DNA of 64,000 bases from Phycisphaeraceae bacterium (GTDB lineage Bacteria > Planctomycetota > Phycisphaerae > Phycisphaerales > Phycisphaeraceae). Location of the stretch: positions 41,282-105,281 of the forward strand of contig JANQKT010000087.1 in assembly GCA_028280965.1 (NCBI GenBank), read 5' to 3'. Position numbers and translations under genes: made by a program. Under the pieces are notes generated by a model, which worked only from the letters and a program-made list of their open reading frames with translations, was not told the DNA's origin and made no database searches. Shown in pieces: positions 5,161 through 30,122 of this stretch. Within the stretch, counting starts at the first letter, position 1. Every line of letters begins with the position of its first letter.

Positions 5161-6054
5161 TCAAACCCCCGCGCCGTCCAGCACGCCGGTCTGTTGCAGC
5201 AGCGCTTCGAGTTTTGTCGCTAGATCATCCGGCAGCTCGGTCAGGGGCAGGCGGACCGCGCCGGTGTCGACGCCGGTCATCTTCATGGCGGCCTTGATCG
5301 GGATCGGGTTGGTGCTCAGGGTCAAGAGGCCCTTGCACAGGTGGAACAGCTCGTGGTGCAGCGCGCGGGCCGCCGGGAGATCGTTCGATGCGGCTGCATC
5401 AACCAAAGCCTTGACCTTCGCGGGCAGGAGGTTGGACAGCACGCTGACGACGCCGACGGCGCCGACGGACATCATCGGCAGCGTCAGGCCGTCATCGCCG
5501 GACAAGAGCGGGATGTCGCAGATGTTGGCGACGGCGGAGGTCATGTCGAGGTTGCCGGTCGCGTCCTTCAAAGCAATGATCATGTCGTGTTCGTAGAGCC
5601 GCGCGACGGTCTCGGGGGACATCGTCACGTTCGTCCGGCCGGGGATGTTGTAGAGCACGATCGGCAGGCCGACCTCGTCCGCGACGGTCATGAAGTGGCG
5701 GTACAGGCCTTCCTGCGTCGGCTTGTTGTAGTAGGGGTTGACCATGAGCGCGGCGTCGGCGCCGACGGCCTTGGCGTGCTTGGTGGTGAACAAAGCCTCG
5801 GCGGTGTTGTTGCTGCCCGTGCCCGCGATGACCTGCACCTTGCTGTCCGCGGCCTCGGCGACGGCGGTGATGATCTTGTTGTGCTCGTCGTGCGTGACGG
5901 TCGGCGACTCGCCGGTCGTGCCGACGGGGACGACGCCGTCGATGCCCTGCTCGACCTGGAAGCGGACGTTGGCCTTCAGCCGGTCGTAGTCAACGGCCGA
6001 GCCGTCGGCGATGAAGGGTGTGACGAGGGCGGTGTAGGCGCCGGCGATGTGCAT
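5161..6054 (-). CDS. dapA: 4-hydroxy-tetrahydrodipicolinate synthase
   Basis: 297 aa, full length. It condenses pyruvate with aspartate semialdehyde, the first committed step to diaminopimelate and lysine. Family residues are visible: VGTTGESPTV (about 44-53), Tyr135 in YNIPGR, and the Schiff-base Lys163 in IIALKDATGN. GGAG lies about 9 nt before the ATG, and TACAAT sits upstream as a possible -10 box, so this mRNA has a leader. Diaminopimelate supply fits the DNPR-type murE at 57.4 kb. Confidence 0.97.
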   Translation of the reverse strand: MHIAGAYTALVTPFIADGSAVDYDRLKANVRFQVEQGIDGVVPVGTTGESPTVTHDEHNKIITAVAEAADSKVQVIAGTGSNNTAEALFTTKHAKAVGADAALMVNPYYNKPTQEGLYRHFMTVADEVGLPIVLYNIPGRTNVTMSPETVARLYEHDMIIALKDATGNLDMTSAVANICDIPLLSGDDGLTLPMMSVGAVGVVSVLSNLLPAKVKALVDAAASNDLPAARALHHELFHLCKGLLTLSTNPIPIKAAMKMTGVDTGAVRLPLTELPDDLATKLEALLQQTGVLDGAGV

Positions 6055-26436: not shown

Positions 26437-27089
26437 GACACGACCCCCTTCTCGACGTGGACGACACGGTCGAAGCGCGGCAGCAGCGACTTGTCGTGCG
26501 TCAGCATGACCAGCGTCGCGCCGTGTTCTTCAACCAACTGCATGAGCAGGTCGAGTGCTGATGTAGCAGTGTCGTTGTCCAGCGACGCCGTCGGTTCGTC
26601 CGCAAGCACCAGTGTGGGCTTGGTGATTAACGCCCGGCAGATACCGACGCGCTGACGCTCGCCCTGCGACAGGCCCGACACTACGCGCCCGGCGGCTTCA
26701 CTTAAGCCAACACGTTCGAGCAATGCGTCCGCACGCTCTCGGGTTTTTCGATCAAGCCGCAGCGATCGGTTCAGACGGCAGGGCAGCAGCACGTTGTCCC
26801 GTGCCGAGAGGTAATCGACCAGCTCGATGCCCTGGAACACCAGGCCCATCGTCGAAAGCCTGAGGCGCCGGCGGGCCTTGTCGTTCATCGCCGACACCGT
26901 TTGGCCATCGATCGCGACTTTGCCCCGCGCCGGCACGAGGATGCCCGCGATGAGGTGCAGCAGCGTCGTCTTGCCGCTGCCGCTGGGCCCGATGACCGCG
27001 GCTTTCTCGCCCTTCGCGATCGACAGCGCGGCGGTCAGCTCGAAGCCGCCGGTGTCGTAGGCAAACGCGATGTCGCTGAGCTCGATCAT
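26433..27089 (-). CDS. ABC transporter ATP-binding protein (LolD/MacB-like)
   Basis: 218 aa. Walker A GPSGSGKTT, Q-loop VFQGIELVDYL, signature GLSQGERQRVGICRAL, Walker B LVLADEPTASLD and H-loop MLTHD. It belongs to the MacB/LolD class that powers mechanotransmission rather than transport through a pore. It overlaps the genes on both sides by four bases, so the three are one translational unit with the permease and the exported 434-aa protein. Confidence 0.93.
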   Translation of the reverse strand: MIELSDIAFAYDTGGFELTAALSIAKGEKAAVIGPSGSGKTTLLHLIAGILVPARGKVAIDGQTVSAMNDKARRRLRLSTMGLVFQGIELVDYLSARDNVLLPCRLNRSLRLDRKTRERADALLERVGLSEAAGRVVSGLSQGERQRVGICRALITKPTLVLADEPTASLDNDTATSALDLLMQLVEEHGATLVMLTHDKSLLPRFDRVVHVEKGVVS

Positions 27090-28390
27090 GAATCGTTCAT
27101 CACGTCCTCGGCGGTCTGATCCCCGTCGTCGACCCGGTGTTGCTGGAGGATGTGGCTCTCGACGATCCGCCAGCCATCGCCGCGCGGCGCGACGGTATAG
27201 ATCGCCTCGAACGCGTTGGTCCGGGCGTGCGTGTGGCCGAAGTGCGTGACCACGCCGTCGACCTGCCACGAGGCTTTGACAAGAAACGAACCTACCTCCT
27301 CGTCGGGCGGGGTTGTGGCGTTCGACTCAAAGTTACCCATCAACTCCATCGACTGCATCTCAACCCGCACGACCTTCGATACCGCGCCGTTTTCTTCCAG
27401 CACGATTAGCGACCGGTACACGTCGTTATAAATCGTCTCGAGCATCGGGCCATCGACGCTCTGCGCGAGGGCATCGTACACCGCGCCCTCGTCGGTGTAG
27501 TCGAACGCCCGGTAGATGTTGCGGTGCAGCGACTCGAAGATCGCCAGGGCCTCCGCGTCGCTCGGCGGAGTGTGCGAAGGCGTGTGCTCGATCCGGATGC
27601 TGCCGACGGGCAGCGTGACCGCGCCGAGCAAAGCCCCGGCCGTGAGCGCGGCCCACCGGCCCCGCGGTTGCCGCTGCCACAACACGGCCGCCACGCACAG
27701 GCCGATCAGCGTGATCACGATCGACAACACGGGGACGCGCAGCCATCGGCGCTCAATCGTCACGGACGCGTCGAAGCCCGCGGGCAGGCCCGAGGCCGCC
27801 TCGCTGTGCCAGGTGTAGCTCGGCTCGGCGGGGGTCAGGAGCACGATCTGCTGCCGCCCTTCGCCCTCGACCAGCGCGACGACCTGCAGGCCCTCGCCTT
27901 CGTGGATCGGCTCACCGTCCGCGTCGTACTGGTTGGCGAAGACCGTCCAGTCGATCGACACCCGACGGGGCTCGCCCTTTGTCTCGTAGCGGGCGACGAA
28001 CTTGAGCGTGCCCTGCTCGAGCACCTGCGCCTCGGGGAACCGCCGGGCTGGCTGGCGGGAGTTGCTCATCTTCACAACCGGCGCGAGGACGGTCGGAGGG
28101 ACGGTGGTGCCATCAATCCTCACCGGGCAACGCTCCGCGAACACCGGCGCGATCAACCGCGCCAGATCCTCCGGCTCCATCCGGTCCATCTCGACCGGCG
28201 ACATCCCATCAAACACCGCGAGCTTCGCATCCTTTGCAGGGATGCTGACGATCAGCTCGACCGCCTGGTTGTCGATGCCGGCCTGGAACGTGACCTGCGG
28301 GAACTCGTCGGCGAGGTGCGCGTGGGTCGGCGGGGCGTGCAGCAGCACGAGACCAATCAGCACGAACAGCCATCCGGGCCGGAATCGCAT
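27086..28390 (-). CDS. Exported, membrane-anchored protein linked to an ABC transporter
   Basis: 434 aa from the ATG at 28390. Signal peptide (LFVLIGLVLLHAPPTHA), a beta-rich N-domain, one or two membrane helices near 240-280 (SIVITLIGLCVAAVLW and the next hydrophobic stretch), and a C-terminal soluble domain with HFGHTHARTN and VESHILQQHRV. TACCAT lies exactly 6 nt before the ATG. It is coupled to a MacB-like ATPase and permease, so it may be the accessory or substrate-binding part. No family was recognised with certainty. Confidence 0.75.
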   Translation of the reverse strand: MRFRPGWLFVLIGLVLLHAPPTHAHLADEFPQVTFQAGIDNQAVELIVSIPAKDAKLAVFDGMSPVEMDRMEPEDLARLIAPVFAERCPVRIDGTTVPPTVLAPVVKMSNSRQPARRFPEAQVLEQGTLKFVARYETKGEPRRVSIDWTVFANQYDADGEPIHEGEGLQVVALVEGEGRQQIVLLTPAEPSYTWHSEAASGLPAGFDASVTIERRWLRVPVLSIVITLIGLCVAAVLWQRQPRGRWAALTAGALLGAVTLPVGSIRIEHTPSHTPPSDAEALAIFESLHRNIYRAFDYTDEGAVYDALAQSVDGPMLETIYNDVYRSLIVLEENGAVSKVVRVEMQSMELMGNFESNATTPPDEEVGSFLVKASWQVDGVVTHFGHTHARTNAFEAIYTVAPRGDGWRIVESHILQQHRVDDGDQTAEDVMNDS

Positions 28391-28396
28391 CGCGGT

Positions 28397-28402
28397 ATGG
28401 TA
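28397..28402 (-). promoter_or_regulatory. -10-like TACCAT, 6 nt before the exported-protein start
   Basis: TACCAT, ACCGCG, ATG (28390): the same spacing as at seven other genes here. Confidence 0.5.
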
Positions 28403-28553
28403 GGCCAATCCCGCCACAAAACCCGGGCGCGGCGTCTCCGCCGAACCCGGGGTTGGGTTTTAACCATCTGCTCTTGACTTGCCAAAGAACACGGCCCAGA
28501 CCATCCGGGCCGAACGCCGCTGAGCCGATCGCTCGGGTCAGGGACGAATAAAG

Positions 28554-28836
28554 CGCAAAACCCCTGTGGGGGAAGCTGCCGCGCTGCCTGGTTGTGGGGG
28601 CGGAAGCGGGGGTCAGGCTTTGCGATAGCCGCGTTCAAAACCGCGGTCTCGCATGGCCGGTGAATTCGCCGCGCGATTGGCGACGGTTCCCGCTGGGCAC
28701 GGCCGGCCTAAGAACTGGCCGACGTGCCAAACACCACCAGGCAGCAGCGCACTGAGGAGGCGCTGTAGGTGAATCGAGATTGGGTGCTGCCTGGGGCTCA
28801 TCGTTGAATCCGGTTGGGGGCTACGTGCCCGTGTGT
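28554..28836 (-). ncRNA. Candidate structured RNA of about 280 nt
   Basis: On the minus strand a TTGCAT-N17-TATGGT promoter (28843-28871) leads into sequence with strong hairpins. These are CCAGGCAGCA/TGCTGCCTGG (28737-28794, with an inner GCGC stem), GGCACG...CGTGCC (28696-28728) and CCGCG...CGCGG near 28637. It ends near CCCCCACAGGGG followed by TTTT (28554-28578), a weak terminator. There is no credible protein frame. I cannot place it in a known RNA family; the RNase P signature is absent. The remaining bases of the 28391-29030 gap hold the repeat at 28950-29033. Confidence 0.45.
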
Positions 28837-28842
28837 GCCCGA

Positions 28843-28871
28843 ACCATATCGGCGGATCGCGGCGGATGCAA
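28843..28871 (-). promoter_or_regulatory. Promoter TTGCAT-N17-TATGGT
   Basis: -35 at 28866-28871, -10 at 28843-28848, spacer exactly 17 nt. The same -35 hexamer occurs in the mraZ promoter and at 60821. Confidence 0.6.
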
Positions 28872-28949
28872 CAGCTTTTCCCGCATTTTGCGGAAGTTTT
28901 GCAGTTCACCGCGCGTAAGTCTTGTGTTGACAGGTTTTGGTGGGTTGGT

Positions 28950-29033
28950 TTGGAACCACAGATACACACCGATGCACATCGGTCAATCCAGACAATTCCT
29001 ATCTGTGTTCATCCGTGTGCGTCTATGGTTTCA
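28950..29033. repeat. Inverted repeat, family B (GGAACCACAGA...)
   Basis: Imperfect arms (about 28950-28982 and 29006-29033) with the signature AACCACAGAtaCACACcGATG and its inverse. Best copy is at 33092-33172. It begins the region downstream of the methyltransferase stop at 29031. Confidence 0.8.
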
Positions 29034-30122
29034 CGCCTTCCCAAACCGGTAGTGCGACACGCCCCATTCGCTCCCGCCCGCGTAGCCCCACAGCTCGGCG
29101 CAGGCCATGAAGAAGATCCGCCAGCGTTGCAGCCAGACCTTTGCGCTGGCTCGGCCGTAGGTCTGTTCGAACAGCGGCAGGATCAGCGAACGCGCCTGGT
29201 CGGTGTTGCTCAGCCAGGCCTCCGCGGTCTTCTGGTAGTGCGTGCCGTCCTGCCGCCAGTCCTGTTCACAGGCCAGGTGCTTGTCGAAGCGGGGCAAGTA
29301 AGTGTGGGCCGGCATGATCCCGCCGGTGAAGAAGTGCCGGCCCATCCAGTTGCTCTGGCCGGCTTCCTCGAAGAGGTACGTGAACCGCCGGTGGCTGAAG
29401 ACGTGTACGAACAGCCGGCCGTCGTCCTTGAGCCAGCCCGCGACGCGGCGCATCAGCTCGCGGTGGTTGGCCATGTGCTCGAACATCTCGACGCTGACGA
29501 CGCGGTCGAAGACGCGGTCGGTTTCGAAAGTGTTGATGTCGGAGGTGACGACGCTGACGTTGCCAAGCCCCAGTTCGCCCGCCCGGCCGAGGATATACGC
29601 GCGCTGGGAGGCCGAGTTGGAGACCGCGGTGATCCGCGCCGCCGGGTGGTGCTCGGCCATCCACAGCGTCAGCGAGCCCCAGCCGCAGCCGAGCTCGAGG
29701 ATATCCATCCCATCCGCGAGTTGGGCACGCTCGCAGACGAGCGCGAGCGCCGCGTCCTCCGCCTGATTGAGCGAACGCACACCATCCGCCCACGTGCAGC
29801 CGGAGTACTTCAGCCGGTGGCCGAGGCAGTGCTTGTAAAACGCGGCGGGGACCTCGTAGTGCTGGCGGTTCGCGTCCGTGGTCTTCACCGCGATCGGCCC
29901 GGCGGAGAGTTTCTCGCGCAGCGCGGCGGTGCGCTGTTCGACCGCGTCGTCACCGCCCGCGCCTTCCTGCTCTAGGCGCTCGGTCAGCAGCCGCCGAATG
30001 CCCCGGCGGATCAGCGCGTCCGGAACCCAGCCCCGCTCGGCCAGGCCCATCAGCCCGCCCTCACGGCCGGTGTCGCGCGGCCGTTGGTCGGCCCGCGCCA
30101 TGTCTGTTGATGCGCTGGTCAT
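29031..30122 (-). CDS. CFA-synthase-like SAM-dependent methyltransferase (second copy)
   Basis: 363 aa. The N-terminus (about 1-75) is divergent and lacks the usual CFA N-domain. Then come QHYEVPAAFYKHCLG, YSGCTW and motif I LELGCGWGSLTLWMA, with VVSVEMFEHMANH, FVHVFSHRRF and MPAHTYLPRF following. It belongs to the class-I methyltransferase group beside cyclopropane-fatty-acyl-phospholipid synthase; such proteins methylate unsaturated acyl chains. Its start overlaps the DUF1295 stop by four bases. Which position or lipid it modifies is not determinable. Confidence 0.88.
   Translation of the reverse strand: MTSASTDMARADQRPRDTGREGGLMGLAERGWVPDALIRRGIRRLLTERLEQEGAGGDDAVEQRTAALREKLSAGPIAVKTTDANRQHYEVPAAFYKHCLGHRLKYSGCTWADGVRSLNQAEDAALALVCERAQLADGMDILELGCGWGSLTLWMAEHHPAARITAVSNSASQRAYILGRAGELGLGNVSVVTSDINTFETDRVFDRVVSVEMFEHMANHRELMRRVAGWLKDDGRLFVHVFSHRRFTYLFEEAGQSNWMGRHFFTGGIMPAHTYLPRFDKHLACEQDWRQDGTHYQKTAEAWLSNTDQARSLILPLFEQTYGRASAKVWLQRWRIFFMACAELWGYAGGSEWGVSHYRFGKA

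Follow-up and report, generated by a model that had tools for sequence, protein, structure and literature searches.

A tRNA-less copy of a tRNA-array leader in a Phycisphaeraceae genome: a putative attenuator sampling every aminoacyl-tRNA

The window, by which we mean the whole 64,000-nucleotide stretch of DNA that was analyzed, carries on its minus strand a unit of ∼290 nt (28871→28546) that fits the leaders of tRNA-gene arrays in the Phycisphaeraceae. The fit is given by a match of promoter and first hairpin (H1) and by an open reading frame that is complete, encoding all 20 amino acids. In our judgment it is quite probable that the element is a solo copy of such a leader, and that the leader is a ribosome-mediated attenuator that would sample every aminoacyl-tRNA and control the tRNA array behind it. 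No tRNA gene was found within the window. Since no array follows, we speak of a solo copy, which functionally is not an array leader. The parts of the unit and its surroundings are as follows.

28910–28934, minus strand: upstream box CCTGTCAACACAAGACTTACGCGCG, made up of an imperfect inverted repeat and ACTTACG, ∼40 nt upstream of the −35 box
28866–28871, minus strand: −35 box TTGCAT, of which TTGC is kept in nearly all aligned leaders
28848–28843, minus strand: −10 box TATGGT, after a 17-nt spacer and inside conserved CGATAT
28546–28838, minus strand: leader transcript, with ends predicted from the promoter, the terminator-like hairpin and the covariance-model match at 28733–28871
28613–28801, minus strand: leader ORF MSPRQHPISIHLQRLLSALLPGGVWHVGQFLGRPCPAGTVANRAANSPAMRDRGFERGYRKA, starting at 28801, 62 codons plus stop
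28737–28794, minus strand: hairpin H1 (from folding), a 10-bp outer stem with an inner hairpin, beginning 7 nt past the start codon
28696–28728, minus strand: predicted second hairpin GGCACG..CGTGCC (from folding only)
28590–28615, minus strand: stop codon and C-rich stretch TGACCCCCGCTTCCGCCCCCACAACC; in most array leaders a CGACCCACAAC-like motif comes after the stop
28583–28591, minus strand: CCAGGCAGC, which repeats the 5′ arm of H1 and could base-pair with the 3′ arm of that hairpin
28546–28584, minus strand: terminator-like hairpin GCGC..CCCCCACAGGGG..GCGC, then TTTATTC (from folding)
28525–28534, minus strand: possible trace of an inter-tRNA spacer, GCGCGATCGGTGCGCC (by eye; short, weak evidence)
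28467–28490, minus strand: BoxA-like element GTTCTTTGGCAAGTCAAGAGCAGA, found also inside intact tRNA arrays
28417–28451, minus strand: strong hairpin, then TTTTG, the counterpart of a hairpin that follows the BoxA-like element in arrays

A sequence-only reading had proposed a structured RNA of about 280 nt behind a consensus promoter, and its span, from the −35 box to the terminator-like hairpin, indicates that the minus-strand unit is what it saw. Homology, covariation and conserved promoter elements bear out a structured, promoter-driven RNA of that size, the predicted transcript being ∼290 nt. The promoter itself was described too generously. TTGCAT and TATGGT are separated by exactly 17 nt on the minus strand, but they are no strong consensus match, and a sigma-70 scan at 9/12 returned no match at this site. 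Transcription would start near 28836. The TTGC box and GATAT recur at equal spacing in relatives. The upstream box with the promoter occurs once per genome in the host (G000) and in G001, G003 and G004; variants of this box precede array leaders, and ACTTAY lies ahead of several array promoters. As a family-wide pattern the upstream box was rejected, since outside genus g1 only scattered matches with 1–2 mismatches were obtained. A sequence resembling it, TTTGTCAACACAAGACTTACG, is adjacent to tRNA-Pro (cgg) in both G019 (L042) and G045 (L058).

On the minus strand, the predicted fold of the 318-nt stretch that covers the unit is better than those of 100/100 dinucleotide shuffles (z −3.1); on the plus strand, it is better than 99/100 (z −2.8). 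The strong hairpins that had been noticed, one with a 10-bp perfect stem, are confirmed: the outer stem of H1 is a perfect 10-bp helix, CCAGGCAGCA/TGCTGCCTGG. Hairpins resembling the second hairpin were seen by eye in G001, G003 and G004, and the terminator-like hairpin is altered yet paired in G001 (ACCC/GGGT). The 3′ arm of H1 can pair with its own 5′ arm or with CCAGGCAGC after the stop codon, touching the terminator-like hairpin. The latter duplex has a predicted energy of −19.7 kcal/mol, which 0/200 shuffles equal. This pairing is favorable in the window and in a small number of relatives and is not general in the family.

A first covariance model was trained on six array leaders, with the window left out, and matched the window at 51 bits (E 6e-10; 28733–28871). 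Among 400 genomes of the order, 17 contain a model match, one of which is a chance match at 22 bits. tRNA genes follow all confident matches (≥41 bits) apart from the G000 and G001 solo copies, and these other confident matches are heads of tRNA-gene arrays in the Phycisphaeraceae and a sister family. For the G001 copy, the first model gives 22 bits and the second 55. Matches under 30 bits, among them those from a search of the whole class, lack an array and were taken as chance. Every organism that a pattern scan named is from the Phycisphaeraceae or is a Phycisphaera MAG, and the leader pattern was not found in viral contigs.

Within H1, both partners are altered in 12/17 base pairs of the family structure, with 40 double changes. 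The covariation score is 0.355, compared with 0.181 (sd 0.018) in shuffles and ≤0.10 when slid, in an alignment that was fitted to the model and so favors the structure. H1 is therefore kept with compensatory changes, and the unconserved hairpins that the earlier reading had named as grounds for abandoning its candidate are not what this comparison revealed. In G001, which belongs to the same genus, the window locus is present at 74% identity, and parts of it are present in G003 and G004; the promoter, the upstream box and the start codon rank with the best preserved portions of these same-genus copies. An element near 28480 (TTGNCAAGTCAAGAGCAG) occurs a single time in each of G000, G001, G003 and G004, and a one-mismatch form lies within long tRNA-gene rows in six genomes of other genera, with a matching promoter and first hairpin upstream of those rows. 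We take the surrounding GTTCTTTGGCAAGTCAAGAGCAGA to be akin to BoxA. The inter-tRNA spacer of intact arrays is GAGCGATCGG, of which 28525–28534 may be the counterpart.

These observations suggest that the window element is a tRNA-less copy derived from a lost row of tRNA genes. tRNA genes at the solo locus number two in G004, one in G003 and none in G000 and G001. A search for tRNAs in the host genome revealed that contig C206 carries an intact 25-tRNA array headed by a homologous leader of its own, and G004 likewise has a second leader copy with an array. What the window copy retains is the promoter, the ORF, H1, the terminator-like hairpin, and the BoxA-like element with its following hairpin.

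The leader ORFs are 62 codons long in both G000 and G001 and 72 in both G003 and G004, with no frameshift within either pair. Substitutions are distributed about equally over the three codon positions, and although these first four ORFs resembled one another at sight, codon-position and BLOSUM tests gave no peptide conservation beyond chance. A frame that stays open without selection at the protein level led to the idea that translation occurs for its own sake. In the Phycisphaeraceae family, 14/19 leaders encode all 20 amino acids, versus 2.7 expected from codon-position-preserving shuffles (maximum 9 in 20,000 draws). Four of the 19 lack Trp only, G008 lacks four amino acids, and the position of Trp varies between leaders. 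To account for common descent, the substitutions seen in each of 12 disjoint pairs were shuffled, with a manually assigned value of 0.16 for the pair G055/G081. All 12 pairs stay open (P 1e-8), and 11/12 keep all 20 amino acids versus 2.7 expected (P 1e-7). Frame 0 is open in 35/35 ORFs, whereas the remaining frames are mostly closed, and it is complete in 28/35 versus 0–7/35 for other frames of the same DNA. The pattern is that of a small ORF kept open by selection at the level of the family; the window pair by itself gives only P 0.23.

Plasmid tRNA arrays of mycobacteria, Micrococcales and Nostocales carry unrelated leader ORFs that are similarly complete: 5/6, 5/6 and 4/4, respectively, encode all 20 amino acids, with the mycobacterial group weak by itself (P 0.017). 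Leaders of Curtobacterium and the Arthrobacter group are complete in only 44–52 codons, a property shared by just 0.3–0.7% of same-size segments of long ORFs. Because this first set was chosen by eye among several ORFs, further homologues were fetched by tblastn regardless of content. All 10 encode the full set, one of them in 43 codons, versus 1.9 expected (nominal P 5e-9); because these sequences share ancestry with each other and with the first set, this P is not that of independent cases. The P values of the groups are likewise nominal because sequences within a group are related. Among the homologues, L147 runs on into an insertion, and L147 and L153 are without tRNAs in the stretch fetched. 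The L139 and L144 arrays yielded no complete leader, phage records contained nothing matching the mycobacterial leader, and the annotation around a Rhodovulum match (H7) showed no array.

Several features of these arrays are recorded for their own sake. In L144 (Frondihabitans), 5804–5929 is annotated as a 41-aa hypothetical protein (WP_286347317.1) located 75 nt before the tRNA array. It contains 18/20 amino acids, lacking Cys and Glu, and may likewise be a leader of the present type. Nostocales arrays have an HNH endonuclease gene after the leader terminator and ahead of the first tRNA (L133 3252–3785, L134 3090–3611, L143 3183–3719), a location in which it would share control by the leader. 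ARAGORN reports tRNA-SeC (tca) and tRNA-Pyl inside arrays (L090 843–916; L134 near 4305; L150; L152), which are possibly suppressor-like.

How such a leader might act is clearest outside the Planctomycetota. In two Micrococcales leaders (L135 and L137), a strong intrinsic terminator, AGAGGCCGCTTCGGG..CCCGAGGCGGTCTCT-CTTTTT, lies ahead of tRNA-Trp, and its 5′ arm pairs with the end of the ORF, ACCGAAGTATCCTCT; L138 is alike, and the same elements are seen by eye in L140. When the ORF end is included, the predicted fold of these leaders is the antiterminator, and from the stop codon on it is the terminator. Curtobacterium has a different terminator whose loop holds an 8-bp partner of the ORF end. 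Eleven cyanobacterial leaders have a terminator of 11–15 bp with TTATTTTT ∼20 nt past the stop codon, and in these 11 the 5′ arm of the terminator is complementary to AAAGCGGGAGG, or a similar sequence, at the ORF end. No canonical intrinsic terminator was found ahead of the first tRNA in the Phycisphaeraceae leaders.

The best explanation of these data is that the small ORF serves to be translated rather than to make a particular peptide, and that it would present at least one codon for each of the 20 amino acids. When translation is unhindered up to the stop codon, the ribosome positioned on the end of the ORF would mask the antiterminator, as in classical attenuation, and transcription would end ahead of the tRNAs. 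If any aminoacyl-tRNA is short or ribosomes are blocked, a ribosome stalled earlier in the ORF would permit the downstream RNA to refold, and the array would be read through. A lack of any one aminoacyl-tRNA would suffice, since the ORF calls for every amino acid. We infer that these leaders are transcribed, translated and regulated in this direction, and, by analogy, that the Phycisphaeraceae version follows the same logic. More broadly, it is likely that arrays in at least three phyla (Planctomycetota, Actinomycetota and Cyanobacteriota) are headed by independently built all-amino-acid leader ORFs, which would act as universal aminoacyl-tRNA sensors that switch on reserve tRNAs by attenuation when any decoding step fails.

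The leader could instead be a noncoding structured 5′ region, involved in array processing or antitermination or acting as an independent regulatory RNA, in which the ORF is incidental. The strong covariation of H1, the absence of both codon-position bias and protein-level conservation, and the combination of a BoxA-like element with hairpins, as in stable-RNA operons, would all suit this explanation. We nevertheless consider it unlikely, given that frame 0 alone is consistently open, that 12 pairs would all remain so by chance only with the probability given above, and that completeness is kept in unrelated lineages. A functional small protein would account for the open frame, the conserved start and the N-terminal MxxxQH, and some of the mycobacterial and cyanobacterial ORFs are annotated as hypothetical proteins. 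However, the even spread of substitutions over codon positions, the lack of a Pfam match for the window ORF, the coincidence of the N-terminal likeness with the H1 stem, and the unrelated peptides of different lineages make this very improbable. The proposal that the RNA is of the housekeeping kind (6S, RNase P, SRP or tmRNA), or else a plus-strand RNA, draws only on the size and on the fold, which is good on the plus strand too, and its chance is slight in the extreme. No Rfam family, riboswitches included, reached its gathering score at the window element, in agreement with the earlier remark that RNase P and tmRNA cores are absent, and the same is true of four array leaders (L064, L126, L133 and L135). 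The homologues, moreover, are tRNA-array leaders with a kept-open small ORF, and promoter, start codon and terminator-like elements all lie on the minus strand. A search of five genomes with RF00013 did not match the window element and gave only subthreshold matches elsewhere. The best of these (G000:C1:12993–13168; L021 1501–1676) is likely the 6S RNA of the host, at 29 bits versus an Rfam cut-off of 46. It has a homologue in G001, and the current model may miss planctomycete 6S RNAs.

The window copy is either a relic or now a regulator of something else. That it is a decaying relic without function has an about even or slightly lower chance. All tRNAs are lost in G000 and G001 and few are left in G003 and G004, and degeneration of planctomycete tRNA clusters is known (PMC4807772). 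On the other side, promoter, start codon, H1 and the complete open ORF are kept between G000 and G001 at 31% divergence (P 0.23 for staying open, P 0.09 for staying complete), which mildly favors function. Relic status of this copy is compatible with the attenuator explanation for the family. The nearest candidate target is the next gene on the strand (27086–28417), which matches no Pfam family and precedes ABC-transporter genes. The earlier placement of the RNA upstream of a lipid cluster holds in plus-strand coordinates only: the cyclopropane-synthase-like gene (29031–30122, minus strand) lies 5′ of the unit on the same strand, and the leader is unrelated to that cluster. Between this gene and the leader, 28954–29035 contains an imperfect inverted repeat, ACCACAGATACACACCGATG..CATCCGTGTGCGTCTATGGTTT, which resembles interspersed repeats of planctomycetes.

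In classical attenuation of the trp, his and leu type, a small ORF is followed by a mutually exclusive terminator and antiterminator and then by the controlled genes. The same order is clear in the Nostocales and Micrococcales arrays. Unlike in those attenuators, the leader ORF spells all 20 amino acids instead of repeats of one, the controlled genes are tRNAs, and in the window these tRNAs have been lost. To our knowledge, known attenuators read one or a few amino acids. If our proposal is true, a leader that spells all 20 ahead of a spare tRNA set would serve as a general sensor of whether the cell can still translate. The finding also gives a sequence signature that is searchable in any genome. 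BoxA is an antitermination element of rRNA operons. Like it, the GTTCTTTG-type box with its hairpin belongs to the transcription unit of a stable-RNA operon. In contrast to it, this box is located within the array or downstream of the array head, and a kept-open leader ORF is present.

In a literature search of partial coverage, such leaders were nowhere described. The degenerate tRNA clusters of planctomycetes (PMC4807772) come from the same phylum and have partial or lost tRNAs; a leader is not described there. Homologues of the window element head long tRNA-gene arrays (L-arrays), a class to which the trn operon of Anabaena (PMC10272220) and mycobacterial arrays (PMC5966550) belong. The passages on these do not describe a leader ORF, and the window copy differs from such arrays in having no tRNAs. 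The same account of the Anabaena operon reports that it is silent, is controlled by the repressor TrcR, and is activated under translational stress (PMC10272220). The attenuator logic agrees with this activation and, if true, would explain how translational stress switches on silent tRNA arrays, as in Anabaena.
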